NCBI RefSeq assembly: GCF_025398315.1
Contig: NZ_JAODOQ010000001.1
Span: 1,612,001-1,676,000, forward strand
Reading direction: 5' to 3'
Source of the DNA: Shewanella phaeophyticola
Lineage (GTDB): Bacteria > Pseudomonadota > Gammaproteobacteria > Enterobacterales > Shewanellaceae
Length of the DNA stretch: 64,000 bases
Both the position numbers and the translations under genes were made by a program. Within the stretch, counting starts at the first letter, position 1. Each line of letters begins with the position of its first letter. Below the pieces are notes generated by a model. The model saw nothing but the letters and a program-made list of their open reading frames with translations, did no database searches and was not told the origin of the DNA. Of this stretch, positions 12,429 to 64,000 are shown piece by piece.

Positions 12429-13868
12429 TTAAGCTACAACAAGTACTTTACAAGTGTTGGTACCGCCGATGGTTTCCATCGCGTCGCCTTTCGTCATCAG
12501 TACCATGTCGCCGCTGGCTAAGTAACCCGCTTCAACCATGCAGTTTAGTGCTTCTTTCGCTAACTCATCAGCTGGATATGCTGTTGAGTCAAACTTAATA
12601 GGTTGTACACCGCGGTAAAGCGCCATGCTGGCTAAAGTCTTTTGGTGACGTGACAGTGCAAAAATCGGTAAGCTTGAGCTGATGCGTGACATTAATTTAG
12701 CTGTCGCGCCAGATTCAGTTAACGAGATAATCGCTTTTACGCCAGCTAAGTGGTTAGCGGCATACATAGTTGATAACGCTATGGTTTCTTCAACAGAAGA
12801 GAAGCTTTGATCCATACGGTGTTTAGACACTTTCACACTTGGGTGTGATTCGGCACCTAAACATACGTTAGCCATCGCCAGTACGGTTTCTTCAGGGAAG
12901 TCACCGGCCGCCGTTTCTGCAGACAACATCACTGCGTCAGTACCGTCTAACACAGCGTTAGCCACGTCCATGACTTCAGCACGAGTTGGCATTGGGTTTG
13001 TGATCATTGACTCCATCATTTGGGTCGCAGTGATCACTGCTTTGTTTAACTGGCGTGAACGTTGAATTAAACGCTTTTGTACTGCAACTAGGGCAGCATC
13101 ACCAATTTCAACACCTAAGTCACCACGGGCAACCATCACAACGTCAGATGCTTTAATCACATCATCCATCGCTTCGTCTGTTTCAACGGCTTCAGCACGT
13201 TCAACTTTAGCGACGATTAATGCGTTGCTACCTGCTTCTACAGCCAGCTTACGTGCAAGGTCTAAATCAGCACCTGTACGTGGGAATGATACTGCTAGGT
13301 AATCAACATCAATCATTGCAGCCGTTTTAATGTCTGCCATGTCTTTTTCTGTTAACGCAGGAGCGGTTAAGCCACCGCCTTTTTTGTTGATACCTTTGTT
13401 ATTAGACAAAGGGCGCAACAGTAACAGTGGTAAACACTTTACGGCCTTCAACACGCTCTACACGTAATTGAACACGACCATCATCAAGCATCAAAATATC
13501 ACCAATCACCACATCATCGGGTAATTGCTTGTAATCAATACCCACTTGGTTTTCATCGCCTTCACCTTTCGCTAGTTCAGCGTCTAGGATGAATGCATCA
13601 CCTAAGTTAAGCATGATTTTTTTGTTATCTTTAAACGTAGAAACACGAATTTTAGAGTACTTGTAAGTCACCTAAAATGGCCACATGCTTACCCAATTCT
13701 TTCGCGATGTTACGTGCATCTGTAGCACGTTTTAAATGATCTTCTGGTGAACCATGTGAGAAGTTAAGTCTAACAACGTTAGCTCCTGCTGCGATAATTT
13801 TACGTAAATTATCATCGCGGTCAGTTGCTGGCTTCAAGTGTTGTAACGATTTTAGTTCTGCGGAACAT
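12429..13868 (-). CDS. pykA: pyruvate kinase PykA, with three apparent frameshifts
   Basis: It converts phosphoenolpyruvate and ADP to pyruvate and ATP. The start is ATG 13868, with GGAG just upstream, giving '[11 protein letters not shown]'. The conserved '[10 protein letters not shown]' follows after a break near 13832. Breaks also occur near 13658, at the expected Leu-Gln-Gly-Pro-Lys-Ile-Arg, and near 13412, at Ala-Pro-Leu-Ser-Asn-Asn. Each break adds one base; removing three gives 479 codons, the normal length of a PykA-type kinase. The active-site region 'TATQMMESM' and 'KVERAEAV' are intact. Two of the three breaks lie at expected Gly-Pro (GGNCC) sites. A HexR-like site lies upstream. 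Confidence 0.93.
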
Positions 13869-13986
13869 GAGATACTCCGTTAAAATGAAAAGAAAGATTT
13901 TTGTTAAATAGAATTTGGTTATTAAAGTAGCTTAGTAATCTTAGTACTTAAATGATGCATATATATTAACAGACATTCTTAATTAA

Positions 13987-14001
13987 TGTAGTAAAGTTAC
14001 A
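13987..14001 (-). promoter_or_regulatory. HexR-type operator upstream of pykA
   Basis: TGTAGTAAAGTTACA keeps the outer TGTA/TACA half-sites of the HexR palindrome. It lies about 120 bp upstream of the pykA start. HexR is known to control pykA in Shewanella. Confidence 0.65.
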
Positions 14002-14055
14002 AACAAAAAGACGTTTTTTAGTGTGTAATTTATGTGACAGATAAGTGATTTCTAC

Positions 14056-14092
14056 AATAAAAAAAGCCTGCTGGGGTTATCCAGCAGGCTTT
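14056..14092 (-). terminator. rho-independent terminator after hexR
   Basis: A perfect 12-bp stem, AAAGCCTGCTGG with CCAGCAGGCTTT, and loop GGTTAT. The A run at 14056-14065 gives the T tract on the minus strand. Confidence 0.9.
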
Positions 14093-14187
14093 CATTGATT
14101 TTTAAACTGATTTTTTGCGGTTAAATGTGGAGATCAAATACACCGTCTAAGTGTAATAATTTAACAGCTTTTACGTACTTTTAGCGC

Positions 14188-15042
14188 TTAAATGGTCAAA
14201 TCTTTGTTGATACGTGATTCTTTTAGCACTTCTTTTACGCGTTTTAGGTTGTCACGAAAACGAGGACTACGGCGTAATGTAAAGCCTGTTGCTAAGACAT
14301 CAATTGTCACTAACTGTGCTAAACGTGATGCCATGGGTAAGTACATGTCGGTGTCCTCAGGTACTTCCATGGTGACAGGTAGTGTACACTCAAGTGATAA
14401 TGGCGAGTTACGAGCGGTAATACCAATCACCGCAGCGCCATTTTCACGGGCAATACGGGCGATTTCAATTAATGATTTGGTGCGGCCTGTGTGCGAGATA
14501 AGCACCACAACGTCACCTTCATTACAATTAATACAGCTCATACGTTGCATTAACACATCATCGAAACAAATCACTGGTACATTAAAACGGAAGAATTTGT
14601 TTTGCGCATCGTGAGCCACAGCAGAAGAAGCCCCAAGACCAAAAAACGAAATTGTTTTGGCTTGAGTCAATACATCAACGGCTTTATTGATAGCCGCTGT
14701 ATCAAGGCTTTGGCGAGCGGTATCGAGCGATGCCATTGAAGATTCAAAGATTTTTGTTGTATATGAGTCTGGTGAGTCGTCTTCTTCAACATGTCGACTA
14801 ACATAAGGTGTACCGTTAGCAAGACTTTGAGCCAAATGTAACTTAAAATCAGGGAAACCCTTGGTATCGAGTCGACGACAAAAGCGGTTAACGGTGGGCT
14901 CACTCACATCAGCCATTTTGGCTAAGGTTGCGATACTAGAATGTATAGCTGTCTGCGGTGAGGCTAATATGACTTCGGCAACTTTTCGTTCCGATTTACT
15001 AAATTGGGTAAGGCTTTTTTGAACCTTTTCTAGGGTATTCAT
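14188..15042 (-). CDS. hexR: central carbon regulator HexR (RpiR family)
   Basis: A 284-residue RpiR-family regulator. The N-terminal helix-turn-helix contains 'LAKMADVSEPTVNRFCRRL', and the C-terminal SIS domain (about 125-260) contains 'ISFFGLGASSAVAHDA' and 'LISHTGRTKSL'. HexR senses 2-keto-3-deoxy-6-phosphogluconate and represses Entner-Doudoroff and glycolytic genes. ATG 15042 is preferred over the in-frame TTG at 15048 because it gives the family start 'MNTLEKVQ'. It is divergent from zwf and separated from it by 340 bp holding candidate operators. Confidence 0.95.
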   Translation of the reverse strand: MNTLEKVQKSLTQFSKSERKVAEVILASPQTAIHSSIATLAKMADVSEPTVNRFCRRLDTKGFPDFKLHLAQSLANGTPYVSRHVEEDDSPDSYTTKIFESSMASLDTARQSLDTAAINKAVDVLTQAKTISFFGLGASSAVAHDAQNKFFRFNVPVICFDDVLMQRMSCINCNEGDVVVLISHTGRTKSLIEIARIARENGAAVIGITARNSPLSLECTLPVTMEVPEDTDMYLPMASRLAQLVTIDVLATGFTLRRSPRFRDNLKRVKEVLKESRINKDLTI

Positions 15043-15081
15043 ATGCAAGCATCCGCTTATAGTAGCTGGTTGAGTAGGGAA

Positions 15082-15106
15082 TGTAAGTTTTATACCATAA
15101 CTTACA
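15082..15106. promoter_or_regulatory. inverted repeat 40 bp upstream of hexR
   Basis: Perfect 8-bp arms TGTAAGTT (15082-15089) and AACTTACA (15099-15106) with a 9-nt spacer. The arms share TGTAA/TTACA with HexR sites but the spacing is longer. It could be a hexR autoregulatory operator or the site of another regulator. Confidence 0.5.
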
Positions 15107-15294
15107 GGAATTTCGTGATTTAAGTTATTTTTTTACCTTTTACACGATCCTGTTGTTATTTTTCAAGACATAGATCACGGTTAAATGGTTCCTAGGCCTC
15201 TTTATAGGCTGAAAATCATACCAGATATTAGACCTGAATGACTAGGTTGTTGATGATGCAAAATTTGCAAATTAAAGATGCAAAAATTAGATTC

Positions 15295-15309
15295 TGTTGT
15301 TATATTACA
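15295..15309 (+). promoter_or_regulatory. HexR-like operator upstream of zwf
   Basis: TGTTGTTATATTACA differs from the TGTAAT-N3-ATTACA pattern at two positions in one half. It lies about 75 bp before the zwf start, where HexR acts in related genomes. The remainder of 15049-15381 holds only promoter DNA. Confidence 0.55.
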
Positions 15310-15381
15310 ACAAAAGTGTGTTTTTATTCATCGACCGAATTCGAACATGGCGCACACACATAATCAGGAGAGCTTTCAGCA

Positions 15382-16851
15382 ATGGGCAAATCAATTGGAG
15401 CCAAGGCTTGTGACTTCGTACTTTTCGGTACAAAAGGCGACTTAGCTAGGCGTAAATTATTACCTTCTTTATATCAGCTAGACAAAGCAGAGTTACTCGA
15501 TAAAGAAACTAAGGTCATTGGTGTTGCGAAAGATGCATTCACTCATGATGAGTTTATCGCCATAGTCACTAAAGCGTTAAAGACGTTTGTTAAAGATGAA
15601 ATTTGCCCTACTACGCTAGAACGTTTCCTGAGCCGCTGTCATTATATCGGCACCAACTTTACCGAACCAGAAGGCTATAAAGCTTTCCACGATTTACTTG
15701 AGCCAAGTAAACGTGTCATGGTGAACTACTTCGCAACTCCCCCTTCTATTTTTGGCGCTATTTGTCGTTGTTTACACGAGCAAAACCTGATCCAATCTGA
15801 CACCCGTGTGGTACTCGAAAAGCCTATCGGTACCGATTTAGAGTCGTCACACGTGATCAACGATCAAGTGGCCGAGTTCTTTAACGAAAACCAGGTTTAC
15901 CGTATTGACCATTATTTAGGTAAAGAAACAGTACAAAACTTGATTGCACTGCGTTTTGCTAACTCGTTATTTGCTTCTAAGTGGGATAACCGCACGATTG
16001 ATCATGTCCAAATTACCGTTGCTGAAGAAGTGGGTATTGAAGGTCGTTGGGGTTACTTTGATGGCGCTGGCCAAATGCGCGACATGATCCAAAACCATTT
16101 ATTACAAGTGTTAACGCTTGTAGCAATGGATCCGCCAGTCAACCTAGACGCTGACAGCATTCGTGACGAAAAAGTTAAAGTGCTTAAATCTCTGCGTCCA
16201 ATTAACCAAGACAACGTGTACGAAAATACCGTCCGTGGTCAGTACAGCGCAGGCTTTTTAAAAGGCTCACCTGTACCAGGTTATTTAGAAGAAGACGACG
16301 CGAACACTAATTCAAATACCGAAACCTTCGTGGCATTGCGTGTTGATATTGATAACTGGCGTTGGGCTGGCGTGCCATTCTATTTACGCAGTGGTAAGCG
16401 TATGCCGTTCAAGAGCAGTGAAATTGTGGTGTACTTTAAAAACCCACCACACAATTTGTATCGCGCAAGCTATCGTAATCTTCCACCGAACAAGTTAACC
16501 ATCCGTTTACAACCGCATGAAGGGGTTGAAATCCAGATGATGAACAAGGTGCCAGGTCTTGAGCAAAAGCAACGCTTGCAAACCACCAAACTGGATTTAA
16601 GTTTTACCGACACCTTTAAGAGTGAACGTATTGCCGATGCTTACGAACGTTTACTGCTTGAAGCCATGCTAGGCAACCAGGCCTTGTTCGTACGTCGTGA
16701 CGAAGTTGAACAAGCGTGGACTTGGGTTGACGGGATCATCCAGTCTTGGGAACAAAGCGGTGAAAAGCCGAAACCCTATCCAGCTGGTACTTGGGGACCT
16801 GTCGCATCAGTAGCGTTAATCACTAAAGACGGCCGTTCTTGGGACGAGTAG
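15382..16851 (+). CDS. zwf: glucose-6-phosphate dehydrogenase
   Basis: A 489-residue enzyme that oxidises glucose 6-phosphate to 6-phosphogluconolactone with NADP+. An N-terminal Rossmann motif 'FGTKGDLARRKL' (about 14) and the active-site 'RIDHYLGKE' (about 174) are both intact. The usual length is matched. CAGGAGA precedes ATG 15382. It is the first gene of zwf-pgl-edd-eda, with short gaps throughout. The reading frame is unbroken. Confidence 0.97.
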   Translation: MGKSIGAKACDFVLFGTKGDLARRKLLPSLYQLDKAELLDKETKVIGVAKDAFTHDEFIAIVTKALKTFVKDEICPTTLERFLSRCHYIGTNFTEPEGYKAFHDLLEPSKRVMVNYFATPPSIFGAICRCLHEQNLIQSDTRVVLEKPIGTDLESSHVINDQVAEFFNENQVYRIDHYLGKETVQNLIALRFANSLFASKWDNRTIDHVQITVAEEVGIEGRWGYFDGAGQMRDMIQNHLLQVLTLVAMDPPVNLDADSIRDEKVKVLKSLRPINQDNVYENTVRGQYSAGFLKGSPVPGYLEEDDANTNSNTETFVALRVDIDNWRWAGVPFYLRSGKRMPFKSSEIVVYFKNPPHNLYRASYRNLPPNKLTIRLQPHEGVEIQMMNKVPGLEQKQRLQTTKLDLSFTDTFKSERIADAYERLLLEAMLGNQALFVRRDEVEQAWTWVDGIIQSWEQSGEKPKPYPAGTWGPVASVALITKDGRSWDE

Positions 16852-16860
16852 GGAGCAGAC

Positions 16861-17559: not shown

Positions 17560-17570
17560 GGAGTTTTACC

Positions 17571-19399
17571 ATGCATTCAGTAGTACAAGCCGTCACAGAT
17601 AGAATCATTGCTCGCAGCCAACAGTCGCGATCAAGCTATTTATCTGCGCTAAACGATGCTAAAGCTCAAGGCGTTCACCGTAGCGCATTAAGCTGTGGCA
17701 ACCTTGCACATGGTTTTGCCGCCTGTCAGCCAGTTGAAAAAGATTCACTGCGCCAATTAACCAAGGCAAACATCGGCATTGTGACCGCATTTAACGATAT
17801 GTTATCGGCACATCAACCCTATGAAACCTATCCAAACATGCTTAAGCAAGCTTGTGCTGATGTGGGCAGTGTTGCTCAGGTTGCCGCAGGCGTTCCGGCA
17901 ATGTGTGACGGTGTGACTCAAGGTCAACCGGGCATGGAACTGAGCTTATTAAGCCGTGAAGTGATTGCCATGTCGACGGCAGTGGGTTTGTCGCACAACA
18001 TGTTTGATGGTGCTTTACTATTAGGCATTTGTGACAAAATCGTTCCTGGTCTATTGATTGGTGCATTGAGCTTTGGTCACTTACCGATGTTGTTTGTGCC
18101 AGCCGATCCAATGAAATCCGGTATTCCTAATAAAGAGAAAGCTCGCGTACGTCAACAATTTGCTCAAGGCAAAGTAGATCGTGCAGCATTATTAGATGCT
18201 GAGTCTAAGTCTTATCACAGTGCTGGTACTTGTACTTTTTATGGCACGGCAAACTCTAACCAATTAATGTTAGAAGTCATGGGCTTACAGTTACCGGGTT
18301 CATCGTTTGTAAACCCAGACGATCCATTACGTGACGAATTGAGCAAAATGGCGGCTAAGCAAGTGTGCCGTTTAACCTCAATGGGCACGCAATATACCCC
18401 AATTGGTGAAATCGTTAACGAAAAGTCTGTGGTTAACGGCATCGTAGCTTTATTAGCCACCGGCGGTTCAACTAACCTTACCATGCACATTGTGGCGATT
18501 GCCCGTGCCGCTGGCATTATCGTCAACTGGGATGATTTCTCTGATCTATCTGCAGCTGTACCACTATTAGCCCGTGTTTATCCAAATGGTCATGCTGATA
18601 TTAACCATTTCCATGCTGCTGGCGGTATGGCGTTATTGGTCAAAGAATTGCTTGATGGTGGTTTGATCCATGAAGATGTTAATACTGTTGCCGGTTACGG
18701 TTTACGTCGTTACACCCAAGAGCCGCGTTTTATTGATGGCGAGTTAAAGTGGGTTGACGGTGTAACTGAATCGTTAGACAAAGAAGTATTAACCCATCTT
18801 GATACGCCTTTTCAAAGCAACGGCGGTTTAACCTTACTTAAAGGTAACTTAGGCACGCGCTGTGATCAAAGTGTCTGCGGTACCTGCAGGTAACCGAGTG
18901 ATTGAAGCGCCTGCGGTTGTGATTAACGATCAAAACGAAATCGATGCCTTGTTTAAATCTGGTTCACTAGACCGAGATTGCGTGGTTGTGGTTAAAGGTC
19001 AGAGCACTAAAGCCAATGGTATGCCTGAACTACATAAACTCACGCCATTTTTAGGTACCTTACAAGACAAAGGTTTCAGAGTGGCATTGGTTACCGACGG
19101 TCGTATGTCTGGCGCATCAGGAAAAGTACCCGCTGCCATTCATTTAACGCCAGAAGCGTTAGACGGTGGCTTAATTGCAAAAGTGCAAGACGGTGACTTA
19201 ATTCGTGTTGATGCTACGACAGGTGAGTTATCACTTTTAGTTGATGAAACCGTATTAGCTAGTCGCACCGCTGGGGTTGTTGATTTACACCATTCAGCTT
19301 ATGGCATGGAGCCGTGAATTGTTTGGCGCACTTCGTCGCAGTTTAAGCAGCCCAGAAACGGGTGCTCGTAGTACTAATGCGATTGATGAATTATATTAA
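17571..19399 (+). CDS. edd: phosphogluconate dehydratase, with two apparent frameshifts
   Basis: It dehydrates 6-phosphogluconate to KDPG, using an iron-sulfur cluster. The first 430 residues read through '[16 protein letters not shown]' and '[12 protein letters not shown]', both typical of Edd. The frame breaks near 18854, where Gly-Asn-Leu-Gly-Arg-Ala-Val-Ile-Lys is expected, and again near 19310, where Tyr-Gly-Met-(Gly/Ser)-Arg-Glu-Leu is expected. It resumes to end in 'NAIDELY' with TAA at 19397-19399. Two surplus bases leave 609 codons, as in other Edd proteins. I infer an intact gene in the cell. Confidence 0.94.
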
Positions 19400-19419
19400 A
19401 AATGAAGGAAGTCGGTAAT

Positions 19420-20064
19420 ATGATTGAGCCTAATAACTGGTCACTCCAACCACAAGATGTGTTTAAACGTAGCCCAGTCGTTCCGGTTATGGTGATTAAC
19501 AAACTAGAACATGCTGTGCCTTTAGCGAAAGCATTGGTTGCAGGCGGTATCAGTGTATTAGAAGTGACCTTACGTACTCCTTGTGCACTCGAAGCCATTG
19601 CAAAAATCGCCAAAGAAGTGCCTGAAGCCCTTGTGGGTGCCGGCACTATTTTAAATGAAGCTCAGCTTAACCAGGCGGTTGCAGCAGGTTCGCAGTTTAT
19701 CATTACTCCAGGTGCCACAGTTGATTTATTAAAAGCGGCTAAAAAGGGCACTGTGCCATTAATCCCTGGTATTGCCAGTATTTCTGAAATCATGGTGGGA
19801 ATGGAGTTAGGTTACACTCACTTCAAATTTTTCCCTGCTGAAGCTTCAGGCGGCGTGAATGCACTTAAGTCATTCTCTGGTGCACTAGCAGACATTCGTT
19901 TTTGTCCAACAGGTGGCATCAGCCCAGCCACTTACAAAGACTATTTGGCTTTGCCAAATGTTGATTGTATCGGCGGCAGCTGGATTGCACCAACAGATGC
20001 AGTAGACAATGAAGAATGGGATCGTATTACACAGTTATGTAAAGACGCGCTAGCCGCCCTTTAA
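19420..20064 (+). CDS. eda: KDPG / 4-hydroxy-2-oxoglutarate aldolase
   Basis: A 214-residue class I aldolase that splits KDPG to pyruvate and glyceraldehyde 3-phosphate. The Schiff-base lysine lies in '[12 protein letters not shown]' (about 135), with 'FCPTGGISP' after it. ATG 19420 is preferred over ATG 19402: AAGGAAG (19404-19410) then serves as the ribosome binding site and the protein opens as usual. It is the last gene of the operon, followed by a strong terminator. Confidence 0.96.
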
Positions 20065-20089
20065 TTAACCCTGTAATGACATCACTCTA

Positions 20090-20118: not shown

Positions 20119-20152
20119 GGCTTTTTCATATAGCCGCAAGTATGTTGCCTGA

Positions 20153-20280: not shown

Positions 20281-20312
20281 GTACTTATGTACTTATGTAC
20301 TTATGTACTCAT
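20281..20312 (+). repeat. four tandem 8-nt repeats
   Basis: GTACTTAT occurs three times (20281-20304), then GTACTCAT with one change. The array directly abuts the 94-bp repeat. No gene starts nearby. Confidence 0.85.
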
Positions 20313-20404
20313 GGCCTACGGCCACTAACGTCGTGGCGCTTCGTCCACACCAGACCAAGAGGAAACCAACGGCTGTTCCCTCTTGGAACTCCCAGCCGCC
20401 ACAT
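20311..20404 (+). repeat. left 94-bp inverted repeat of the accessory island
   Basis: The reverse complement of 26342-26435 matches this segment at all but about five positions. It contains an internal hairpin, CCAAGAGG with CCTCTTGG. A second inverted-repeat block, 20562-20597, matches 26305-26340 with three differences. In the right copy the two blocks are adjacent; here they are 157 bp apart. Confidence 0.85.
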
Positions 20405-20459
20405 CAAAATTATCTGAAAAGCGATAATTTCGCGACGTGGTTTGATCCAGCTTTTAACT

Positions 20460-20655: not shown

Positions 20656-20656
20656 C

Positions 20657-26167: not shown

Positions 26168-26341
26168 GCAATAAAATGAAATATCATTAGCAATTGCGGT
26201 TGATTCGAACATTGCTTTTTCTAATGCGAAGGATTGAATTTTGAACATCAGCTCTAACTCGAAATTGTCCATAAATGAGTGAGATGCCTCAGCTTGAAAT
26301 GCCTAAATTCAACTCTGAACTTGAGGTCGTTGCAGAAAATG

Positions 26342-26435
26342 ACGTGGCGGCTGGGAGATCCAAGAGGGAACAGCCGTTGGTTTCCTCTTGGTCTGGTGTG
26401 GGTGAAGCGCCACGACGTTAGTGGTCGTAGGCCAT
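26342..26435 (-). repeat. right 94-bp inverted repeat of the accessory island
   Basis: This is the inverted counterpart of 20311-20404, and 26305-26340 is the counterpart of 20562-20597. Together the repeats bound about 5.9 kb. The rest of 26168-26551 shows no convincing gene. Confidence 0.85.
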
Positions 26436-26551: not shown

Positions 26552-26785
26552 ATGGATTTACTTTTTATCATATACTTTGCTCTAGCCATTTACTTTGTGT
26601 TAAGCCTTGTCATATCAGTCTTCTTAGCTAAAAGAGGGGACTTGGATAATGTGCAAAAATTTGCTCAGATTGTTCTTGTCTGGTTAATCCCATATTTTGC
26701 TGCTATTGCTTTGTGGCAGTTTAACAAAAGCCAAGATCAAGCAGTCTGCAAGCATTCGAATTTTGGCGGAGGATTCAAGAGATAG
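26552..26785 (+). CDS. small membrane protein
   Basis: A 77-residue protein with two hydrophobic segments (about 3-25 and 38-58) and a short charged tail. The layout resembles short phospholipase-D-like N-terminal membrane anchors (PLDc_N type), but I cannot confirm that. ATG 26552 has a fair upstream GAGGAAG. I do not assign a function. Confidence 0.5.
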   Translation: MDLLFIIYFALAIYFVLSLVISVFLAKRGDLDNVQKFAQIVLVWLIPYFAAIALWQFNKSQDQAVCKHSNFGGGFKR

Positions 26786-29623: not shown

Positions 29624-32221
29624 CTAGTCTTTATATGCACGGCCATAGAAGCTGTCTAATAGCACTTGTTTAATCTCGCTAATGAGTGGGTAACGAGGGT
29701 TTGCACCAGTACATTGGTCGTCAAATGCATCTTCTGCTAATTCATCTAACTTGGCGATAAAGTCTGCTTCATTAACACCGGCTTCTTGAATCGAAGCTGG
29801 GATCCCAATGAGCTTTTTAAGCTGTTCAATTTTCTCAATCAGTTTTTCCACTTTTTGCTCGTCTGTTTTACCACCTAACTTTAAGTGTTCACTAATGGCG
29901 GCATAACGACATAATGCTTTAGGGCGATCGTACTGACTGAACGCGGCTTGTTTGGTTGGCATGTCTGTCGCATTAAAACGAATAACGTTAGAGATTAACA
30001 ATGCATTGGCAAGACCGTGTGCTAAATGAAACTCCGCTCCTAATTTGTGTGCCATTGAGTGACAAATACCTAAAAATGCATTGGCAAAGGCAATACCAGC
30101 AATGGTGGCGCCGTTATGGACTTTCTCACGAGCGACTGGCGCTTTTGCACCTAACTCATAAGCATCGGGTAAGTATTTTACCAATAAATCTAATGCCTGT
30201 AGTGCCTGGCCATCACTGTATTCGTTAGCCATCACACTGACATAGGCTTCTAATGCGTGGGTGACTGCATCAATACCGCCAAAGGCTGTTAACGATTTAG
30301 GCATATCCATCACAAGATTAGGGTCAACAATCGCCATACTTGGGGTTAACTCGTAATCGGCAATAGGGTATTTCATGCCTGTGGTTTCATCGGTTACTAC
30401 CGCAAAAGGAGTGACCTCTGAGCCTGTGCCTGATGTGGTTGGTATCGCCACCATTTTGGCTTTACGACTCATTTTAGGAAACTTGTAGATACGCTTACGA
30501 ATATCCATAAAGCGTAGGGCTAAATCGGCAAAATCGACATCTGGGTGTTCATACATTACCCAAATGATTTTTGCAGCATCCATGGGTGAGCCGCCACCTA
30601 ATGCAATAATCACATCTGGCTGGAAGCTTTGTGCAACCGCTGCGCCTTGACGAACAATGGCTAATGTTGGGTCGGCTTCTACCTCGTAAAAGACTTCAGT
30701 TTCTAGTCCTTGTGCTTTTAAAATCTTTAAGGTTTCGTTGCAATAACCATTATTGAACAAGAATTTGTCGGTAATGATTAATGCACGTTTTTTATCGCTT
30801 AACTCTTCAAGGGCAATCGGTAAACTGCCACGGCGGAAATAGATTGAAGATGGAAGCTTGTGCCACAACATGTTTTCAGCCCTCTTAGCGACCATTTTTT
30901 TGTTGATTAAGTGACTTGAGCCAACGTTTTCTGAAATAGAATTACCGCCCCAAGAGCCGCAACCTAAGGTTAATGATGGCGCTAACTTGAAGTTGTATAA
31001 GTCGCCAATACCGCCTTGTGAAGCTGGAGTGTTAATTAAAATTCGCGCGGTTTTCATTCTAAAACCAAAGGCTTTGATGCGCGCTTCTTGAGTGTCTTGA
31101 TCTGTATATAAACCAGAGGTATGGCCAATGCCGCCAAGGGTGACAAGGGCTTCTGCTTTATCCATGGCCTCATTAAAGTCTTTGGCCTTGTACATGCCAA
31201 GTAATGGTGAGAGCTTTTCATGGGCGAAGGCTTCAGCGTCGTTAATGTCGGTCACTTCGCCAATCAATACTTTAGTGTGGCTGGGTACGGTTATGCCTGC
31301 CATAGCAGCTATCGTTACTGCACTTTGACCTACGATGTCGGCATTAAGTGCGCCCTTTTTAAGAATGACATTTTGCATAGCAGCGGTTTCAGCTTTTGAC
31401 AATATGTAACCACCATACTGAGCAAAACGTTCTTTTACTTGCTTATAGATGCTGTCGACAATAATCACCGCTTGCTCTGACGCACACACCACACCGTTGT
31501 CGAAGGTTTTTGACATTAAAATTGAGCTCACTGCACGTTTAATGTCTGCGGTTTCATCAATCACAATTGGGGTGTTACCCGCGCCAACACCAATAGCAGG
31601 CTTACCAGAAGAGTAGGCGGCTTTCACCATACCAGAGTCACCAGTGGCTAAAATCAAATTGATTTTGTCGTGTGTCATTAATTGGTTAGACAGTGCCACA
31701 CTAGGTTGGTCTATCCAGCCTATAATGTCTTTTGGTGCACCTGCTGCAATCGCGGCTTCTAGTACGATTCTGGCTGCGGTTGTGGTTGAGTTTTTAGCCC
31801 GTGGGTGCGGCGAAAAGATAATACCGTTGCGGGTTTTTAAGCTAATAAGGGCTTTAAAAATGGCGGTAGAGGTTGGGTTGGTTGTTGGTACAATTCCGCA
31901 AATTATCCCTACGGGCTCAGCGATTGTAATGGTGCCAAAGGTTAAATCTTCAGACAAAATACCGCAGGTTTTCTCATCTTTATACTTGTTATATATGTAT
32001 TCAGACGCAAAGTGGTTTTTAATGACTTTGTCTTCAAGCACGCCCATACCGGTTTCAGTCGCGGCCATTTTGGCAAGTGAAATGCGCGCATCTGCTGCAG
32101 CTAAGGCTGCGGCTCTAAAAATAACATCGACTTGCTCTTGGCTAAAATTAGCAAACTGAGCTTGTGCTTTGGCTACACGTTCAACTAATAGATCAAGTTC
32201 TTGAGTGTTAGTTACTGTCAT
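29624..32221 (-). CDS. adhE: bifunctional acetaldehyde-CoA / alcohol dehydrogenase
   Basis: An 865-residue fusion that reduces acetyl-CoA to ethanol in fermentation. The N-terminal aldehyde dehydrogenase domain (about 1-440) has its catalytic cysteine in 'DNGVVCASEQ' (about 245). The C-terminal iron-dependent alcohol dehydrogenase domain (about 450-865) carries 'GGGSPMDAAK' and the metal-binding 'GICHSMAHKLGAEFHLAHG'. The protein is slightly shorter than E. coli AdhE. The frame is unbroken. A near-perfect HexR motif lies 115 bp upstream, which suggests control by central-carbon flux. Confidence 0.97.
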   Translation of the reverse strand: MTVTNTQELDLLVERVAKAQAQFANFSQEQVDVIFRAAALAAADARISLAKMAATETGMGVLEDKVIKNHFASEYIYNKYKDEKTCGILSEDLTFGTITIAEPVGIICGIVPTTNPTSTAIFKALISLKTRNGIIFSPHPRAKNSTTTAARIVLEAAIAAGAPKDIIGWIDQPSVALSNQLMTHDKINLILATGDSGMVKAAYSSGKPAIGVGAGNTPIVIDETADIKRAVSSILMSKTFDNGVVCASEQAVIIVDSIYKQVKERFAQYGGYILSKAETAAMQNVILKKGALNADIVGQSAVTIAAMAGITVPSHTKVLIGEVTDINDAEAFAHEKLSPLLGMYKAKDFNEAMDKAEALVTLGGIGHTSGLYTDQDTQEARIKAFGFRMKTARILINTPASQGGIGDLYNFKLAPSLTLGCGSWGGNSISENVGSSHLINKKMVAKRAENMLWHKLPSSIYFRRGSLPIALEELSDKKRALIITDKFLFNNGYCNETLKILKAQGLETEVFYEVEADPTLAIVRQGAAVAQSFQPDVIIALGGGSPMDAAKIIWVMYEHPDVDFADLALRFMDIRKRIYKFPKMSRKAKMVAIPTTSGTGSEVTPFAVVTDETTGMKYPIADYELTPSMAIVDPNLVMDMPKSLTAFGGIDAVTHALEAYVSVMANEYSDGQALQALDLLVKYLPDAYELGAKAPVAREKVHNGATIAGIAFANAFLGICHSMAHKLGAEFHLAHGLANALLISNVIRFNATDMPTKQAAFSQYDRPKALCRYAAISEHLKLGGKTDEQKVEKLIEKIEQLKKLIGIPASIQEAGVNEADFIAKLDELAEDAFDDQCTGANPRYPLISEIKQVLLDSFYGRAYKD

Positions 32222-34714: not shown

Positions 34715-36431
34715 ATGACTACAAGTCAACACTCCCATTCATTTGATAAAATGAATGAAGAGCAGCTTCCAGTTGCCAAAAATAAGCTCCACGGTTGGAA
34801 ACATTTTGCGGGTTTGTATGCCGGGGAGCATGTGGCCGCGACCGAATTTGTGATTGGTGCAACTTTTGTTGCCTTAGGTGCATCAACCATTGATATTCTT
34901 TTAGGGTTACTGATTGGTAACCTGTTAGCGATGTGTTCTTGGTGGCTATTAACTGCGCCTATTGCAGTAGAAACACGTTTAAGTCTTTATAATTATTTAA
35001 ATAAAATTGCTGGTGATTCAATGACCAAGCTCTATAACTGGGCTAACGTTATTATTTTCTCGGTGATATCCGCCGCGATGATCACCGTGTCATCCACCGC
35101 AGTACGATTTTTATTTGATATTCCCGCCCAATTAAATTGGTACCCAAGTAGCTTATGGTTTGTGATGATTGTCTTAGCCGTCGGCTCTATTGTGGTCGTG
35201 GTCGCTATGTACGGTTTTTCAACGGTTGCCGATTTTTCTAAAATTTGTGCTCCTTGGTTGTTTGTCATCTTTATCGCGGGCTCATTTACGTTATTTCCAG
35301 CGCTGTCAAATCATGTAATAGGCAGTACGACCTTAACGAATTGGCAAGACTTTATCACTATTGGCGACAATTCAATCTGGACTGGGGTGAATGATAAAGG
35401 CGAAAAAGGCATTGGTTTACTTGAAGTAATAGGCTTTGCTTGGGCTGCTAACTCGATTACCCATTTTGGTTTAATCGACATGGCTATTTTCCGTTTTGCG
35501 AAACGCAAAAGTTATGGCTTGTTTTCAGGCGTAGGGATGTTTTTTGGTCACTACATTGCGTGGATCTCTGCAGGTATTATGGGTGCAGGTACTGCTGTGC
35601 TTTTAAAAACCACCATTACGCAACTTGATCCAGGTGATGTGGCATATCATGCATTGGGCTTTTCTGGTTTTGTTATTATCATTATTGCGGGTTGGACTCA
35701 CTGCAAATGCTAACCTTTATCGTGCCGGTTTAGCCGCTCAGTCAATCTTTGTTAATCAATCACGTGAACGCACGACCGCTGTTGTAGGGTTAGTGACCGT
35801 TGTGATTGCCTGCTTCCCATTTGTGTTTACCCAAATGCTGCCACTCTTAACTTATGCAGGTTTATTAGTTGTGCCAGTGGGCGGGATTGTGTTTGCCGAG
35901 CATGTGTTATTTCCTAAAATTGGGTTAACTCGTTATTGGGCTAAATATCAAAACCTCTCTAAAAGTACACCTGCTATTGCAACGTGGGCGTTAGCATTAA
36001 TATTTGGTTTTGGATTAAATAGCTTAGATATTATTTCATTTTATTATTTATTTATTCCAACATGGATTTTTACCATCATCATTTATACCGTGTTAGCTAA
36101 AAAGTATGGCGCGGATTTAGATTATACCGATGCTATTTTAGCTGATGAAAATGACCAGCAACAGATTGCTGAATATCAAGAGTCTATGGCGATAAATGAT
36201 AAAGATATTATTGATGACGGCAGTAAAATTACTAAATTATTAAATGGTTTTGCATTCGTATCGTTAATGACCATTACAATGTTGGCGGTTAATGTGATGT
36301 TCTTTAGTCCTAATATGGAAGTATATGCAGACAATAAAACATTATTCGAAAGCGTGTGTTTTGCTTGTACTATCATTTATTTTAGTTGTTCTTATGTTGC
36401 ATTAAAACGTCATAAGAAATTGAATATCTAG
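34715..36431 (+). CDS. NCS1-family permease, with one apparent frameshift
   Basis: About 571 residues and roughly 12 membrane segments after correction. 'GWTTANANLYRAGLAAQ' is the strongest NCS1 (nucleobase:cation symporter-1) signature, and it spans the frame break near 35697. There the sequence has one extra base within the expected Trp-Thr-Thr codons. NCS1 carriers usually import purines, pyrimidines, allantoin or thiamine. In this cluster the only evident substrate is a sugar alcohol, so I infer a polyol transporter. A long hydrophilic loop (about 455-495) precedes the last two segments. Confidence 0.85.
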
Positions 36432-47549: not shown

Positions 47550-49194
47550 GTGGCCATTCATCAACGCGCAGGACAGCAAGCAGTACAAACGGATTTAGTG
47601 AATATTCCTAAATTGATGAGTCACTATTATCGCATTATTCCCAATGTAGAAGATGTGCAGCAAAAAGTGACATTTGGTACATCAGGTCACCGTGGCAGTG
47701 CTTTTAACGCCAGTTTTAATCAAAACCACATTTGGGCTATTGCCCAAGCGGTAGTGGATTATCGTCAATCTGCGGGCATTACCGGCTATATGATTGTCGG
47801 TTTTGATACTCATGCATTGTCATATGCGGCATTTATGTCGGTAGTTGAAGTGCTGACCGCGAACCAAGTTAAAATTCTCATCCAAAAAGAGGATGGGTTT
47901 ACCCCTACACCTGTGGTGTCACAAGCCATTGTGAGTGCTAATGCTAGTAAGCCCGCAGCGTTGATAGATGGATTAATTATTACCCCGTCACACAACCCCC
48001 CACAAGACGGTGGTATTAAATACAATCCTCCGCACGGTGGCTACAGCAGAAGGTGAAATCACCAAAGTCATCGAAACCAAAGCTAACCAATACCTTGCTG
48101 ACCAATTAAGCGGCGTTAAGAAGGTTAATTATGGTGTGGCGGTGCAATCGGGTTGGATTGATGAAGTTGATTTTATTGCGCCATATGTTGAATCACTGGC
48201 TGAAGTGATTGACATGGAGGCGATTAAAAAAGCTAACGTTCGTTTAGGCGTTGATCCGCTAGGCGGATCTGGTATTTATTATTGGGAGCAAATTGCTGCG
48301 AAATACGGCCTTGATATTACCTTGGTTAATGACAAAGTAGACCCAACCTTTGGCTTTATGACACTGGATAAAGACGGCAAAATCCGTATGGACTGCTCGT
48401 CACCTTATGCGATGGCAGGTTTGCTAGCACACAGCGAAAGTTATGATTTGTGTGTTGGTAACGACCCTGATTACGACCGCCACGGTATTGTGTGCCCAGG
48501 CTTTGGTTTAATGAACCCTAACCATTATTTAGCCGTGGCCATTGATTACTTAATGACCCATCGTCCGCAATGGTCTGCTTCATTATCGGTTGGCAAAACG
48601 TTGGTATCGAGTGCGATGATTGACCGTGTGTGTCATGCACTAGGTCGCCAATGTTTAGAAGTGCCAGTCGGCTTTAAATGGTTTGTTGATGGTTTAGCCC
48701 AAAGCACCATTGCTTTTGGCGGTGAAGAAAGTGCCGGCGCGGCGTTTTTAAAACGTGATGCTAGCACCTGGTGTACCGATAAAGATGGCTTTATTTTGGC
48801 GCTACTGGCGGCTGAAATTTTGGCTGTGACCGGTAAAACACCTGCACAACGTTATAAAGAGTTAACCGATCAATTTGGTGAAAGCTTCTATACCCGTATT
48901 GATAGCCCAATAAGCCTGAAGAAAAAAGCCAAGTTTGAATTGCTCAACGCCCAAAGTTTTACTGAGACCGAGCTTGCCGGCGAAGCGATCACAGCGATTT
49001 TAAGCCATGCACCGGGTAACAATGCGGCTATTGGTGGGATAAAGGTGACCACTGAAAATGGCTGGTTTGCTGCACGTCCATCTGGCACTGAAGCATTATT
49101 TAAAATCTACGCTGAAAGCTTTATTAGCCAGCAGCATCTCGATGAGATTATTGCTCAAGCGCAAATCATGATTGATTCGGCTTTAAAAGGTTAG
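47550..49194 (+). CDS. pgm: phosphoglucomutase, with one apparent frameshift
   Basis: It interconverts glucose 1-phosphate and glucose 6-phosphate. It starts with GTG 47550 (GGAG 10 bases upstream), giving 'MAIHQRAGQQA'. The phosphoserine loop 'TPSHNPPQDGG' and the metal loop 'GNDPDYDRHG' are intact. Near 48042 the expected GGCCCA (Gly-Pro-Ala) reads GGCTACA and the frame shifts by one. The corrected protein is 547 residues, close to E. coli Pgm. It follows seqA by 48 bases. Confidence 0.95.
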
Positions 49195-49465: not shown

Positions 49466-51655
<2,190 letters not shown>

Positions 51656-54203: not shown

Positions 54204-55617
54204 TTAGCCTCTGTAGCCGAATAGTTTGTGTTCCATAATGGCTTTACTGACAGGCTCAGGTACAGTATCAACCCAATCACCTTGGCCGCGACAAATTTGT
54301 TGTAAAATTTCTCTAGAAAAAATATTAAATAACTCGGGGTTACTAGACTCAATGCTGGTGATAAAACCGTTATCTAGCACATGGCGGAATAAGTAACGCA
54401 GATTATTAGGCACACTAAGGGTATTTAAATCGTTTATTTCACCTTTGTCATCGCGTTCAGGGTACACAAATAAACGGGTGTTATCGGGGAATAACTTGCC
54501 AAAGGCTTCAAGAATACCGCCTTCCATACCGCGATAATATTCTTCGTCAAAGATTTGTTTAATATTAACAATACCCACCACAATACCAATTTGCAATTGG
54601 GTATATTGACGGAAATAAGCCCTTAATGAGAAGTAACGTGTGTAATCCGAGATCATCACGTTATAGCCTAATAAATTAAGCAACTTAACGCGCTCCATGA
54701 TGTCTTTTTCAGACATATTGGCATCTTTACCGTGTAAGTCATTTAGCGATATTTCAGCAATTAATACAGTATTTTTATTTGTTACGCCTTCTTGTGTGGC
54801 AAAAGCTTTATAACCTTGCTCAATCATATCAACATTGAGTTTGGTAATCGGTTTAAAGGAGCCACGAATAGTTAATACGTTCTTTTTGTACAGCATGTCT
54901 GCCGGTACCGCAACGCTGCCATCGGCTTTAAACATAATCGCGCGGGTTTTCCAGCTGCGAATAAGGTGAATGTTTTTAGCTTGATTATCTACATCTTCAA
55001 AGTAAGGCTGCTTGAAAGTCGATACAATCAATTTCAATTCGATTGGCTTTCATGTTATCGCTCAGTGAGTCGATAATCATTTTTGGGTCTTCAAAATAAT
55101 AGTAACTGGCGTAAATCAGATTTACCCCTAATATCCCCAATGCTTGTTGTTGAGCTTCTGCGGTATCGTCAAACATGCGCACATGGACAATAATGTTAGA
55201 CGGTTCTGCCCCCGGGTACATTTGAATTCGCACACCACACCAGGCATGGCATTCATTTTTACGGTTAAAACTTTTCGCTGAAACGGTCGCGGCGTAAGTA
55301 AAGTAACGTGAGGATTTAGAGCGCACACCACCGACACGATCAACCACTAAATCGAACTCTTGTTCCATCATTGCAAGCACTCTGGCTTTGCTGACATAAC
55401 GGCCGTCTTCTTGTACGCCATAAATAGCATCAGAGAACTTCATATCGTATGCAGACATGGTTTTAGCGATCGTTCCGGCCGCCGCTCCCGCCACAAAAAA
55501 GTTACGTGCCACTTCTTGGCCTGCACCAATTTCAACGATGGTGCCGTATTTCTTTTCATCTAAATTAAGACGAAGAGCCTTTTCTTTGGTACCACGTGAA
55601 CTGACTTGCTTATCCAT
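54204..55617 (-). CDS. conserved protein of unknown function, with one apparent frameshift
   Basis: After correction about 470 residues, soluble and without a signal peptide. ATG 55617 opens 'MDKQVSSRGTKEKALRL', and a strongly Gly/Ala-rich patch follows ('FFVAGAAAGTIAKTMSAYD', about 42-60). At 55009 the expected Asp-Phe-Gln-Gly-Pro-Tyr-Phe is broken by one extra base at a GGGCC site (GCAGCC). The second half runs to 'MEHKLFGYRG'. I do not recognise a characterised family. The steady frame and conserved-looking core make it a real gene. It lies alone between the GGDEF-EAL remnant and dacB. Confidence 0.8.
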
Positions 55618-59416: not shown

Positions 59417-59489
59417 TCTTCATTGAATAATCAGTATTCTCCATTCATCATCTTAAGGGTGATGAATTTTTTTCACTTCAGAGTTTTTT

Positions 59490-60290
59490 ATGACCCAAGT
59501 TGTTAGTCAAACCTCAAAAGCAGCTATACATGCGGTTCATCGACTGCATGCATACCGTAAGTCGCTGTCAACTAAACCGTTTGGTGCTCGGGGTAAAAAG
59601 CTCATTCGCTGTAACTTATGTTTGTTGGGTGAATTATTTTGTACTTGTAAACATCGGCAATATTTGACTACCCAAGTCAGTTTTATGTTGATTATGTATA
59701 ATGATGAAGTGTTAAAGCCAACTAACAGTGGCCGCTTAATTGCCGATTTAATTCCTGATACCCATGCTTTTTTATGGACTCGTACTAACACTGATCAACA
59801 GATGTTGGCGTTATTAGATGATCCGCACTATCAGCCCTATTTAGTGTTTCCGCAGCAGTACATCGAAAATCAGCAAGCTGTGGTGAATCAAATTATGCCG
59901 CAAGCGTTATTACAACCCAGCAACAAGGTTAAAACGCCTTTATTGGTGATGTTAGATGGTAGCTGGCGAGAAGCCATTAAGATGTACCGTAAAAGCCCTT
60001 ATTTACATCAAATGCCGGTGTTGTCGTTTGCACCAGAAGCATTAGCGACATATGCGCTGCGTAAAGGCAGCCATGATTTTCAATTAGGCACTGCTGAAGT
60101 GGCATCATTAGCATTGAGTGCAGCCCAAGAACCGCAAAACGGCTTAGCGCTTTCTGCCTGGTTTGATCTATTTGTTGAATCATCATTGCTTGGACGTAAT
60201 CGCCGTGCTAAAGAAACCTTAACGCCAATTGAGCACTACATTAACGCATTTACAGATGCTCTTACGGCGAGCAAGCAACAAATAGACTAA
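59490..60290 (+). CDS. DTW-domain tRNA-uridine aminocarboxypropyltransferase
   Basis: A 266-residue protein of the DTW family (E. coli YfiP/TapT), which adds the 3-amino-3-carboxypropyl group to uridine-47 of tRNA. A cysteine cluster 'RCNLCLLGELFCTC' (about 35-50) and the family motif in 'VMLDGSWREAIKMY' (about 155; here Asp-Gly-Ser-Trp) are seen. It follows pssA by 73 bp in the same direction. Confidence 0.88.
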   Translation: MTQVVSQTSKAAIHAVHRLHAYRKSLSTKPFGARGKKLIRCNLCLLGELFCTCKHRQYLTTQVSFMLIMYNDEVLKPTNSGRLIADLIPDTHAFLWTRTNTDQQMLALLDDPHYQPYLVFPQQYIENQQAVVNQIMPQALLQPSNKVKTPLLVMLDGSWREAIKMYRKSPYLHQMPVLSFAPEALATYALRKGSHDFQLGTAEVASLALSAAQEPQNGLALSAWFDLFVESSLLGRNRRAKETLTPIEHYINAFTDALTASKQQID

Positions 60291-60350
60291 AGCGCAGGAC
60301 ATATTTGCATATTGGCCGATTTTACGGGATGCTTATTAGATAACGTGATA

Positions 60351-60647
60351 CTAGGGTCTGTTGATCTTTCAAGGTTATTTTTGTAGCGAATTGTTGGTCT
60401 TTACTCACATATATAACTGCGCGGCAGAGACTTTGAGGTGTAGTTATTCTACATAAAAAGTCGATAACGCAGTAAAAATGGCCAACAAACGCTGCCCGAA
60501 GGGTTCGGCTAAAAACGTTTTACTCTTTGTTGAATGATTCTTTGCAAATAAAGAGTTGCTTAGATTGCTAGGCATCAATCCATTCGCCTCGATTAACACG
60601 TTTTTAACTCGAACAAAATTCAACCAGCAAAGATCAACAGACCCTAG
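60351..60647. mobile_element. 297-bp MITE-like element with perfect 19-bp terminal inverted repeats
   Basis: CTAGGGTCTGTTGATCTTT at 60351-60369 is repeated exactly, inverted, at 60629-60647. The interior has no supported gene; a 69-codon minus-strand frame overlaps the end and is not convincing. Length and perfect ends suggest a young non-autonomous element that depends on a transposase elsewhere. Confidence 0.8.
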
Positions 60648-60683
60648 GTACATTTTATTAATAAGGACTTTATAGCACGCATT

Positions 60684-61044
60684 ATGGAAGACTTGCTCAA
60701 CACACGTTCACAATACAGCGCAACAAAATTGGTGATTTTATATCGGCTTGAACCTGGGTGTTTAGGCTACTGATGGCGTTGATCATATTGTCACTTTTTG
60801 CCAATTAGCAGAACGTGCGTTAGTGCATTTAAATGCCGATATATGTCAGTGGATTTTAGCGCCTCGTTTTGATAAGTCTCTCATTGAATTTCAATACAGT
60901 TTGGCTGGAAAAGTGTTGTCTCACGACAAAGCCGTTAAGTTTGTTGCCTCGTTTGACCAGCAACTTGATGTGATTGAGGCGCAATTTGAAGACAAGCTTA
61001 CTCAGTTGATTAACCAATACATTGCCCGTAAAGCAGTGCCTTAA
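60684..61044 (+). CDS. conserved hypothetical protein, with one apparent frameshift
   Basis: ATG 60684 opens 'MEDLLNTRSQYSATKLVILYRLEPGCLG'-like sequence (written here for its first part only). The frame then breaks at 60766, where GGCCCT is expected and GGCTACT is seen. It continues 'DGVDHIVTFCQLAERALVHL' to the stop at 61044. Corrected length is about 119 residues. Two helical halves without a signal peptide are seen. The function is unknown. It precedes the helicase gene by 69 bp. Confidence 0.65.
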
Positions 61045-61113
61045 GTCGCTAATTTTTCTTTTCGCTTAACCCTATGATGTGATGGGTTTAATCACTATAT
61101 TCAGGGATTATCT

Positions 61114-63124
61114 ATGTCAAGCATTACCCCAAACGCAGATTCAGGCCAAGGCGTTACCTCTGCAAGCCTACACCAATTATTACAACAGCAATTTGGCTTT
61201 GATCATTTTAGAGCTGGCCAACAAGCGGTAATCGAAACCATTTTAGGCGGCCAGTCTGCGTTAGCGATTTTCCCTACGGGCTCGGGTAAGTCTTTGTGCT
61301 ATCAATTTTGTGCTCAACAATTACCCCATTTGACCTTAGTGATTTCACCCTTATTAGCGTTAATGAAAGACCAATTGGCCTTTTTAGCCAGTAAAGGCAT
61401 TGCTGCGGCCAGTATTGACTCTAGTTTAACCTATGAACAAACCCAACAAGTGATGCGAGATGTGCGTGATAATCGCACCCGGATTTTAATGGTCTCGGTT
61501 GAACGATTTAAGAATGAGCGCTTTAGGCAGTTTTTGCATTCTGTGCCAATTTCTTTACTGGTGGTCGATGAAGCTCACTGTATTTCTGAGTGGAAGTCAT
61601 AACTTTCGTCCTGATTATTTAAAAATACCGCAATTTTGTCAGGCATTTTCTATCCCGCAAACCCTGTTACTGACCGCGACAGCCACAGCGCAGGTTAAGC
61701 ACGATATGGCCTCGCGTTTTGGTTTAGCACCAGCACAAATCATTCAAACCGGCTTTTATCGCGCTAATCTCGATTTGTCGGTCTTGGCGGTCAGTCAGCA
61801 AGATAAAAATATCCAACTCGTCGATTGCGTTAATTATTATGCTAACAACGGCCAAAAGGGTGCCGGTATTGTGTATGTGACTTTGCAGCAAACGGCAGAA
61901 GATGTGGCACAAGTATTAATTAATCAAGGGATTAACGCTCGCGCATATCATGCAGGTATGGAGCAGGAGGCGCGCCAAAGTATTCAGCAACAGTTTATGG
62001 ATAATCAGGTACAAGTTATCGTTGCTACCATTGCTTTTGGTATGGGCATTGATAAGTCCGATATTCGTTTTGTTATTCATTATGATTTACCCAAATCGAT
62101 TGAAAATTACAGTCAAGAAATCGGCCGTGCAGGGCGCGATGGTCAATTGTCTCATTGTGTTACATTAGCGAATCTCGATGGGTTAAATACGGTCGAAAAC
62201 TTTGTCTATGGTGATACGCCTGAGCCTGAAAGCATCAAGCAATTACTTGAAATCATTGCTGATGAAACGGATCAAGGGCGCTGGGAAGTTCAAGAACTGC
62301 CATTATCTACAGCCTGTAACATTCGCGGCTTGCCATTAAAAACCTTGTTTGTGCAATTAGAACTACTTGGGGTGATTAGCCCAAGTTTTGCGTATTTTGC
62401 TGATTTTAAATACCGCTTTGTAGAAGATATGCAGGTTATTTTGAAGCGCTTTAACTCTGAACGTCAGGCTTTTTTAAACCAAGTATTTGAACATACTCAC
62501 TTTAAAAAAATCTGGGGGCAGTTAGATTTTGACAGTTTGTATCAACAATATGGTGCCGAGCGCCAACGTGTTGTGGCGGCATTGGAGTATTTAGCTGAGC
62601 AGCAGCTGATTATTCTTGAAACTAAAAAAATCACTCAGGTGTATAACGTTAATCAACAGGCGCTTGTTCATCCTGCACAGTTACAGGCATTAAGCTTGCA
62701 GATAAGCAACTATTTTGCTGATAACGAGCGCAAAGAAATTGTGCGTATTAGCCAACTGGTGGCATTTTTTGAGCTCGACAGCTGTTTAAGTGCCTCATTG
62801 GCCGAATACTTCGACGATCAAGCCGCGCCGAAATCATGTGGTCATTGCAGTGTTTGTCGTGGTCAAATTGCGGTATTATCTAAACAGGCGTTAGCTCCAT
62901 TACCAGACTCAGCTAACGTTGCTGCATTGCTTGCGCCATTACACCAAGTGGCTCAGGCTAAATCGCTACCCACTGTGACTGTTGCGACACAGGCTAAATT
63001 TCTTGCTGGTATGGTGATGCCAAGGTTTAGCCGTTTAAAAGTCAAACAATTAGACGGCTTTGGCCGTTTTAGTGCTTACCGATACCAAGATATTCTGGCT
63101 GCTGTTAACAAGGTGAATTCATGA
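61114..63124 (+). CDS. RecQ-family ATP-dependent DNA helicase, with one apparent frameshift
   Basis: About 669 residues after correction. Motif I '[12 protein letters not shown]' (about 52), the DEAH-type motif II '[11 protein letters not shown]' (about 150), motif III '[10 protein letters not shown]', and motif VI '[11 protein letters not shown]' are present. A zinc-binding 'SCGHCSVC' follows near residue 580. The frame breaks at 61594, where Trp-Gly-His (TGGGGCCAT) reads TGGAAGTCAT. It resolves DNA structures in repair. It is longer than classic RecQ and lacks an obvious HRDC domain, so it may be a second RecQ paralogue. Confidence 0.92.
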
Positions 63125-63396
63125 AACCCGTTCCTGAAGCATTATTAAAAAAACACGCCAATTTAGTTCAAAGTGAGGGGGTCACTGTGGTGTCTCACAC
63201 CCAACGAGAAGTGGGTGAGTGGGTATTACAAACCTTGATGATAGAAGATTGCGATGTGCCGTTTAAGTACAAACGCCCTAAACGCTTTAAAAGTTTACAA
63301 GGCCAAAAGGTCAACCTCATTTATTATCCAGCCAAAGAATCTGTGGCTGGATTTGAAATCGAAGTCATGCAAGTGGTTCGGGTTAGACGCTACTAA
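63121..63396 (+). CDS. conserved hypothetical protein
   Basis: A 91-residue basic protein whose ATG overlaps the helicase stop (ATGA), so it is translationally coupled. The core 'VPFKYKRPKRFKSLQGQKVN' is rich in Lys and Arg and may bind nucleic acid. I do not recognise the family. The coupling suggests a role beside the helicase. Confidence 0.7.
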   Translation: MKPVPEALLKKHANLVQSEGVTVVSHTQREVGEWVLQTLMIEDCDVPFKYKRPKRFKSLQGQKVNLIYYPAKESVAGFEIEVMQVVRVRRY

Positions 63397-63476
63397 TCGC
63401 TCTACTACTGGCAGCCTTAATTCCACATAATAGTATTAACCTAATGATGGCAGGCTATTGATAATTTAACTATTAT

Positions 63477-64000
63477 CTATTTAATACTGTAGTTAAATTC
63501 ACTTACCGCCCGCCAAATGCGATAACGTAATTGAGCATCTTTAGGTAAATAAAATACCTTTGGCAAACGGCTATCGTATGCTTGGGTAAGGCTGTCATTG
63601 AGAACCACAAATTGTGCTTTTTTGCCATCTGTACACATCATTCGGGTACTTGGCCTTGCATTATGTTGTTCACTTGATAATAACGGTAACCCCAGCCGTC
63701 GAGTGACAGGGTCTGGATTTCGCCTATTAACTTTACCTTGTTGCAGTCAACCAGCTTATTTTGACCTACCTGGATTTCAATTAAATACTCTGACTCATTG
63801 TTTAGCTTAGGTAGGGTTATGATGTGTTGCACCATGTTGGCTTGAGGCGCAGGATACATTTTTGTGTCTGCTTGAGCCTGATAGTTTTCTGTATTCATTA
63901 CGCTGGATTGAATGGGTATTGTGTTTAATGGGTCGTTATTGGTTTTAGGGGTGGCCTGGCTCGCCAATGACACGCTAGCAATAAGTAAACTAGCGGCCAT
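63477..64000 (-). CDS. eco: ecotin-like serine protease inhibitor (5' end outside window, one apparent frameshift)
   Basis: Periplasmic ecotin inhibits trypsin-like serine proteases as a dimer. An incomplete signal sequence 'MAASLLIASVSLASQATPK' lies at the right edge; the true start may be further on. 'VGQNKLVDCNKV' and 'LSLDGWGYRYYQV' match ecotin. Near 63653 an expected GGNCC (Gly-Pro) reads GGCC, a loss of one base. The reading frame then gives 'STRMMCTDGKKAQF', including the reactive-site Met and conserved Cys, to the stop at 63477-63479 after 'EFNYSIK'. Confidence 0.88.

Follow-up and report, generated by a model that had tools for sequence, protein, structure and literature searches.

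Analysis of a 64,000-nucleotide stretch of the Shewanella phaeophyticola genome (assembly GCF_025398315.1, contig NZ_JAODOQ010000001.1, positions 1,612,001 to 1,676,000; hereafter the window) showed that most sites which read GGNCC in related species are substituted or carry insertions or deletions (indels) in this assembly. The affected motif is GGNCC. The best explanation, in which we place high confidence, is that GGNCC is methylated in this strain and that the methylated sites were misread in a long-read assembly. An Eco47II-like methyltransferase, predicted to be specific for GGNCC, would mark one cytosine on each strand, and a long-read base caller untrained on this mark would write a different, often one-base-longer sequence at the site. 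This supposes an enzyme active on GGNCC, 5-methylcytosine (5mC) as the mark and an assembly made only from long reads of native DNA, probably nanopore reads. The genome (G000) comprises three contigs totalling 4.79 Mb, its completeness being estimated at 90.97%, compared with 96-100% among the 84 other genomes of the genus listed; three contigs and 91% completeness are compatible with a native-DNA long-read assembly lacking short-read polishing.

The window was compared with S. saliphila (L001), S. algicola (L002), S. metallivivens (L003) and S. ulleungensis (L004), to which its DNA is 93.7%, 92.1%, 90.9% and 86.9% identical, respectively, over 14.7-19.0 kb; its zwf product shows 98-99% identity to the zwf products of the same four species. 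The four relatives were merged, and a position was counted as shared when two or more of them had GGNCC there and no more than one relative covering it lacked the motif. At the 21 shared positions the window has a single intact GGNCC, 12 substituted sites and 8 sites with an indel. A first-pass annotation of this DNA had described the changes as nearly uniform one-base insertions, which was not borne out, substitutions being more numerous than indels. It had also placed the start of the effect at position 12429. This is too late: nine of the 21 positions fall in 7293-11781, and the effect is genome-wide.

When S. saliphila was taken as the reference, 3 of its 25 GGNCC sites were identical in the window, 14 were substituted and 8 had an indel, whereas in S. 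algicola 18 of 21 were identical, 3 were substituted and none had an indel (Fisher P = 6e-7 for retention; P = 0.005 for indels). Relatives compared with each other kept GGNCC identical at 60-86% of sites in six comparisons among S. saliphila, S. algicola and S. metallivivens, and at 42-65% in five comparisons that included S. ulleungensis or a further locus, L005. Only one indel at GGNCC was found across all 11 of these comparisons.

The first-pass annotation had reported frame breaks at positions where GGNCC is expected, and this was confirmed: 10 of the 11 alignable positions among the 13 it named read GGNCC in one or more relatives, a check that rests partly on the alignments shown, at most five per position. 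The exception is 51568, where the sole aligned relative has GGCC and no GGNCC. At 61594 GGNCC was found in only one of the five relatives shown, and at 63653 in both of two relatives, in poor alignments. No match was found for 35697 and 36763 in seven genomes, the furthest-reaching named relative ending at 35369.

Shared positions at which all four relatives have GGNCC and the window has an indel are 7293..7298, in an M3-peptidase-like gene, 8115..8120, 10729..10733, 11781..11787, 13411..13416, in the pyruvate kinase gene, and two named earlier in the same gene (pykA), 13655..13661 (as 13658) and 13830..13836 (as 13832). Substitutions at sites present in all four relatives occur at 10288..10293, 10389..10395, 11097..11101, 11385..11389, 14264..14268 (hexR-like gene), 18105..18109 (edd), 19002..19008 (edd, an overlapping GGNCC pair in the relatives) and 19879..19883; those at 9508..9512 and 18569..18573 (edd) replace a GGNCC present in three of four. 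Both of two relatives have GGNCC at 26771..26777, where the window has an indel, and at 30466..30470 and 30918..30922, which lie in adhE and are substituted.

Outside the set of 21, edd has an indel at 19308..19314 (previously 19310), where two of four relatives have GGNCC. The window has an extra base at five more of the positions named in the first-pass annotation: 48036..48046 in the phosphoglucomutase gene (48041; GGNCC in all five relatives shown), 50373..50383 and 50699..50709 in a gene for a KatG-like peroxidase (50378 and 50704; two of three relatives each), 55004..55014 (55009; the sole aligned relative) and 60761..60771 (60766; both of two relatives). The one shared site that is intact in the window, 16795..16799 in zwf, had already been listed as such. 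Eleven GGNCC remain in the window, examples being the overlapping pair at 50398..50403.

The motif had been proposed as GGNCC or GGCC. The first form held; GGCC as the affected motif was rejected, since outside GGNCC it behaves normally: the window and S. saliphila are identical at 23 of 33 such sites, and S. algicola and S. saliphila at 16 of 23. CCNGG (19/30) and GCNGC (42/84) were also retained in the window at ordinary rates relative to S. saliphila. Inner C to T was the commonest substitution relative to this species, with 7 cases, followed by outer C to A with 5 and second G to A with 4; the marked base may be either cytosine of GGNCC.

Deamination of 5-methylcytosine would also give inner C to T and, on the complementary strand, second G to A. 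Deamination, or avoidance of a restriction site, could have removed GGNCC in the cell itself, in which case the broken genes would be real pseudogenes; the genome-wide depletion of GGNCC and the presence of a methyltransferase, both described below, are likewise in line with a true loss. Deamination makes no indels, yet indels were found at 8 of the 21 shared sites. Protein constraint was also disregarded. Non-synonymous changes relative to S. saliphila affected 13 of 42 codons overlapping GGNCC and 63 of 5120 codons elsewhere (P = 1e-14), and corruption disregarded codon phase; among the 45-51 GGNCC codons in each of five comparisons between relatives, 0 or 1 was changed non-synonymously. The earlier view that the pattern does not look like decay is upheld by these counts.

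Broken frames affect the pyruvate kinase, Edd and phosphoglucomutase genes and the two-piece peroxidase gene (katG in the first-pass annotation). Joint loss of these four functions would be unlikely in a growing cell, and the split genes are probably whole in the cell; that the first three are all broken together speaks against true loss. Frameshifting gaps in the open reading frames (ORFs) of S. saliphila, S. algicola and S. metallivivens numbered 14, 11 and 11, of which 7, 8 and 8, respectively, touch a GGNCC of that relative, so that some of the breaks do not fit the motif. Five comparisons between relatives gave 1 to 8 frameshifting gaps each, none touching GGNCC.

Gaps outside GGNCC are what generic long-read or GC-related assembly error, with no modification involved, would produce. 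The concentration on a single motif largely contradicts this explanation, which we regard as extremely improbable: other GC-rich motifs showed no such loss, none of the 11 gaps relative to S. algicola, as printed in the alignments, lengthens or shortens a homopolymer of at least four bases, and no other 5-mer comes near GGNCC in depletion.

The rest of the genome was sampled with 18 stretches of 20 kb from contig C1 (360 kb), in addition to the window. GGNCC occurs 92 times in the 18 stretches (0.26 per kb) and 11 times in the 64 kb of the window; seven named relatives contain 178 in 132 kb (1.35 per kb). Compared with the relatives, GGCCC and GGACC were the two most depleted of all 512 5-mers in the 18 stretches and the window, so that the site-specific excess looked for in the first-pass annotation is present genome-wide. 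Because the loci of the relatives represent one genomic region only, a second test took the Markov expectation of the genome itself as its baseline. The same two 5-mers were again lowest of the 512, at 0.19 and 0.44, both exceeding 1 in the relatives. No other 5-mer stood out as a second motif in either test. Both small contigs are likewise deficient, C2 having 1 GGNCC in 5.8 kb and C3 2 in 19.1 kb, and the effect was therefore seen on all replicons. Scaling from the densities in the relatives suggests roughly 3,000-5,000 such errors genome-wide.

The depletion extends to the predicted proteins. Gly-Pro codons (GGN-CCN) necessarily contain GGNCC, and Gly-Pro was the lowest of the dipeptides with an expectation above 20, with 37 observed and 242 expected in the 18 stretches (0.15) and 5 observed and 40 expected in the window (0.13). 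Pro-Gly in the 18 stretches stood at 0.98 of expectation. This collapse of Gly-Pro is a further disregard of protein constraint that weighs against true loss.

Gly-Pro lies somewhat below 1 in most of the genus, and the yardstick is the comparison between genomes, not the value 1. In 34 other Shewanella genomes, sampled over 20-120 kb, GGNCC ranged from 0.24 to 0.93 and Gly-Pro from 0.26 to 0.93; the set of named relatives gave 0.68 and 1.16. S. phaeophyticola, at 0.13 and 0.15, lies under all of these. One genome, G072, was considered as a second case at 0.24 in one 20-kb stretch, but its value over 180 kb was 0.50 and it was not retained. Another, G128, had a low Gly-Pro value (0.26, over 40 kb only) with ordinary GGNCC (0.57, over 140 kb).

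Survival of the remaining sites depends on the flanking bases, in agreement with the earlier remark that context matters. Relative to the density in the relatives, approximately 1% of AGGGCCT and 47% of TGGWCCA were retained, and 11% of GGSCC and 30% of GGWCC. Misreading of a signal would be expected to produce a gradient of this kind.

The first-pass annotation had suggested looking for a fitting methyltransferase in the genome, and one was found outside the window, at C1:95647-96918. It is the sole match in this genome to the C5-cytosine methyltransferase family PF00145 (293 bits; 423 amino acids in one open frame) and is of the Eco47II type: the proteins annotated as M.Eco47II in Vibrio crassostreae and as modification methylase Eco47II in V. 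nigripulchritudo are 90% and 85% identical to its product, respectively. An RE_Eco47II endonuclease gene (PF09553; 158 bits, cut-off 25.9) adjoins the methyltransferase gene, and an RE_TdeIII gene (84 bits) lies on its other side. TdeIII cleaves at GGNCC; a literature search on TdeIII restriction found no paper. The cleavage site of Eco47II is GGNCC as well (PMC10305163).

The cassette, at 10757-13773 of locus L083 (C1:94757-97773), thus places the methyltransferase between endonucleases of two different families, RE_TdeIII and RE_Eco47II. A gene with a MazG domain overlaps the end of the second of these genes, and integrase and transposase-like ORFs lie nearby. In databases, related methyltransferases are found fused to either endonuclease domain (P0017, P0019).

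A search of 129 genomes of the genus for homologues of the methyltransferase gave G067 (74% identity) and G114 (67%) as the next-best matches, the next covering match among those listed having 37%. In both genomes an RE_Eco47II gene adjoins the methyltransferase. Their GGNCC densities are 0.90 and 0.92 per kb and their Gly-Pro values 0.71 and 0.54, within the range of the genus. Since both keep an ordinary density of GGNCC, such a cassette alone does not purge the motif; this is a further argument against true loss in the cell, which we consider highly improbable. Helicases of 845 amino acids are encoded near the cassettes of S. phaeophyticola and G067 and are unlike each other.

The severity of the corruption, with its indels, goes beyond some reports on 5mC and could point to another modification at GGNCC, such as N4-methylcytosine, phosphorothioate or a bulkier base, that is not the product of the C5-methyltransferase found; a search for DndE gave no match in this genome, but none in its controls either. 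Such an explanation is very unlikely. No match to the N4/N6 methyltransferase family PF01555 exceeded the cut-off in this genome, where one weak sub-threshold match was seen. No extra assumptions are needed to match GGNCC to the C5 enzyme and to the two endonuclease families, and GGCC outside GGNCC is unaffected.

Several points weigh against misread methylation as the explanation. Both the methylation and the misreading are deduced from the assembled sequence, and the enzyme is predicted to methylate GGNCC by homology only. The methyltransferases of the two control genomes are only 74% and 67% identical to it and may be inactive. About 3 of the 11 frameshifting gaps relative to each of S. algicola and S. 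metallivivens touch no GGNCC of the relative. Gaps near 7261, 8106 and 18855 recur in the comparisons with these two and with S. saliphila and touch no GGNCC of the three; the strain itself may have had GGNCC at these places where the relatives have none. A mark at GGNCC does not inevitably garble an assembly, and an older chemistry or base caller must be assumed. In the Eco47II-type system of M. hominis, the nanopore scores given for GGNCC were barely over the cut-off (PMC10305163), and in group B Streptococcus 5mC at GGNCC was called from R10.4.1 data, assembly trouble going unmentioned in the excerpt of that report (PMC13343189). The errors described in Listeria are mismatches and not indels (PMC10687267), compared with 8 of 21 indels here.

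Other features of the window were recorded. A tandem trio of tRNA-Tyr genes (anticodon gta) lies at 1202-1581 on the minus strand. Related repeats of about 109 bases at 20311-20419 and 26330-26435 are oriented opposite to the copies in the zwf region of the relatives. An element of about 300 bases at 60351-60650 is multi-copy: dozens of matches to it, with identity of up to 93%, occur in G042, and G034 also has many.

If misread methylation is indeed the cause, a near-complete Shewanella genome contains several thousand spurious changes and broken frames, which would mislead gene calling, counts of pseudogenes, strain typing and completeness scores. The errors themselves would indicate the specificity of the methyltransferase with no raw data, and the Gly-Pro deficit would offer an inexpensive way to screen public genomes for further affected cases. 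We lean towards the more general view that a finished assembly records the methylome of its strain, the missing k-mer naming the motif and Gly-Pro serving as a proteome-level detector for GGNCC, and that a screen of public long-read genomes could pair modification specificities with enzymes. Among the matches listed in a literature search of titles and abstract openings, no report of GGNCC assembly errors and no detector based on a Gly-Pro deficit was found.

Systems with an Eco47II-type enzyme are known from M. hominis (PMC10305163) and group B Streptococcus (SagCOH1II; PMC13343189), where a C5-methyltransferase was likewise assigned to GGNCC. In M. hominis an Eco47II-family endonuclease adjoins the methyltransferase, as it does here (PMC10305163). 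Unlike in these two systems, endonucleases of the Eco47II and TdeIII families flank one methyltransferase in S. phaeophyticola; the activity and specificity of this system are predicted, with indirect support from the error pattern at GGNCC.

The closest parallel to the errors comes from nanopore assemblies of Listeria (Chiou et al. 2023, PMC10687267). Those errors were likewise strain-specific, bound to short motifs and attributed to modifications on which the base caller was untrained, and they survive polishing. In Listeria they are mismatches at GCTGG/CCAGC and GCAGC/GCTGC; here the motif is GGNCC, substitutions and indels both occur, and the diagnosis was made without reads. Nanopore outbreak data (PMC11610573) also showed motif-bound false bases in native-DNA assemblies with strain-specific patterns; these were methylation-induced A/G and C/T ambiguities at motifs of the RA/TY type, whereas at GGNCC indels and several base types are involved. 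Modification-mediated nanopore errors were thus already known; what is new here is the motif GGNCC, the host and a diagnosis that needs no reads.

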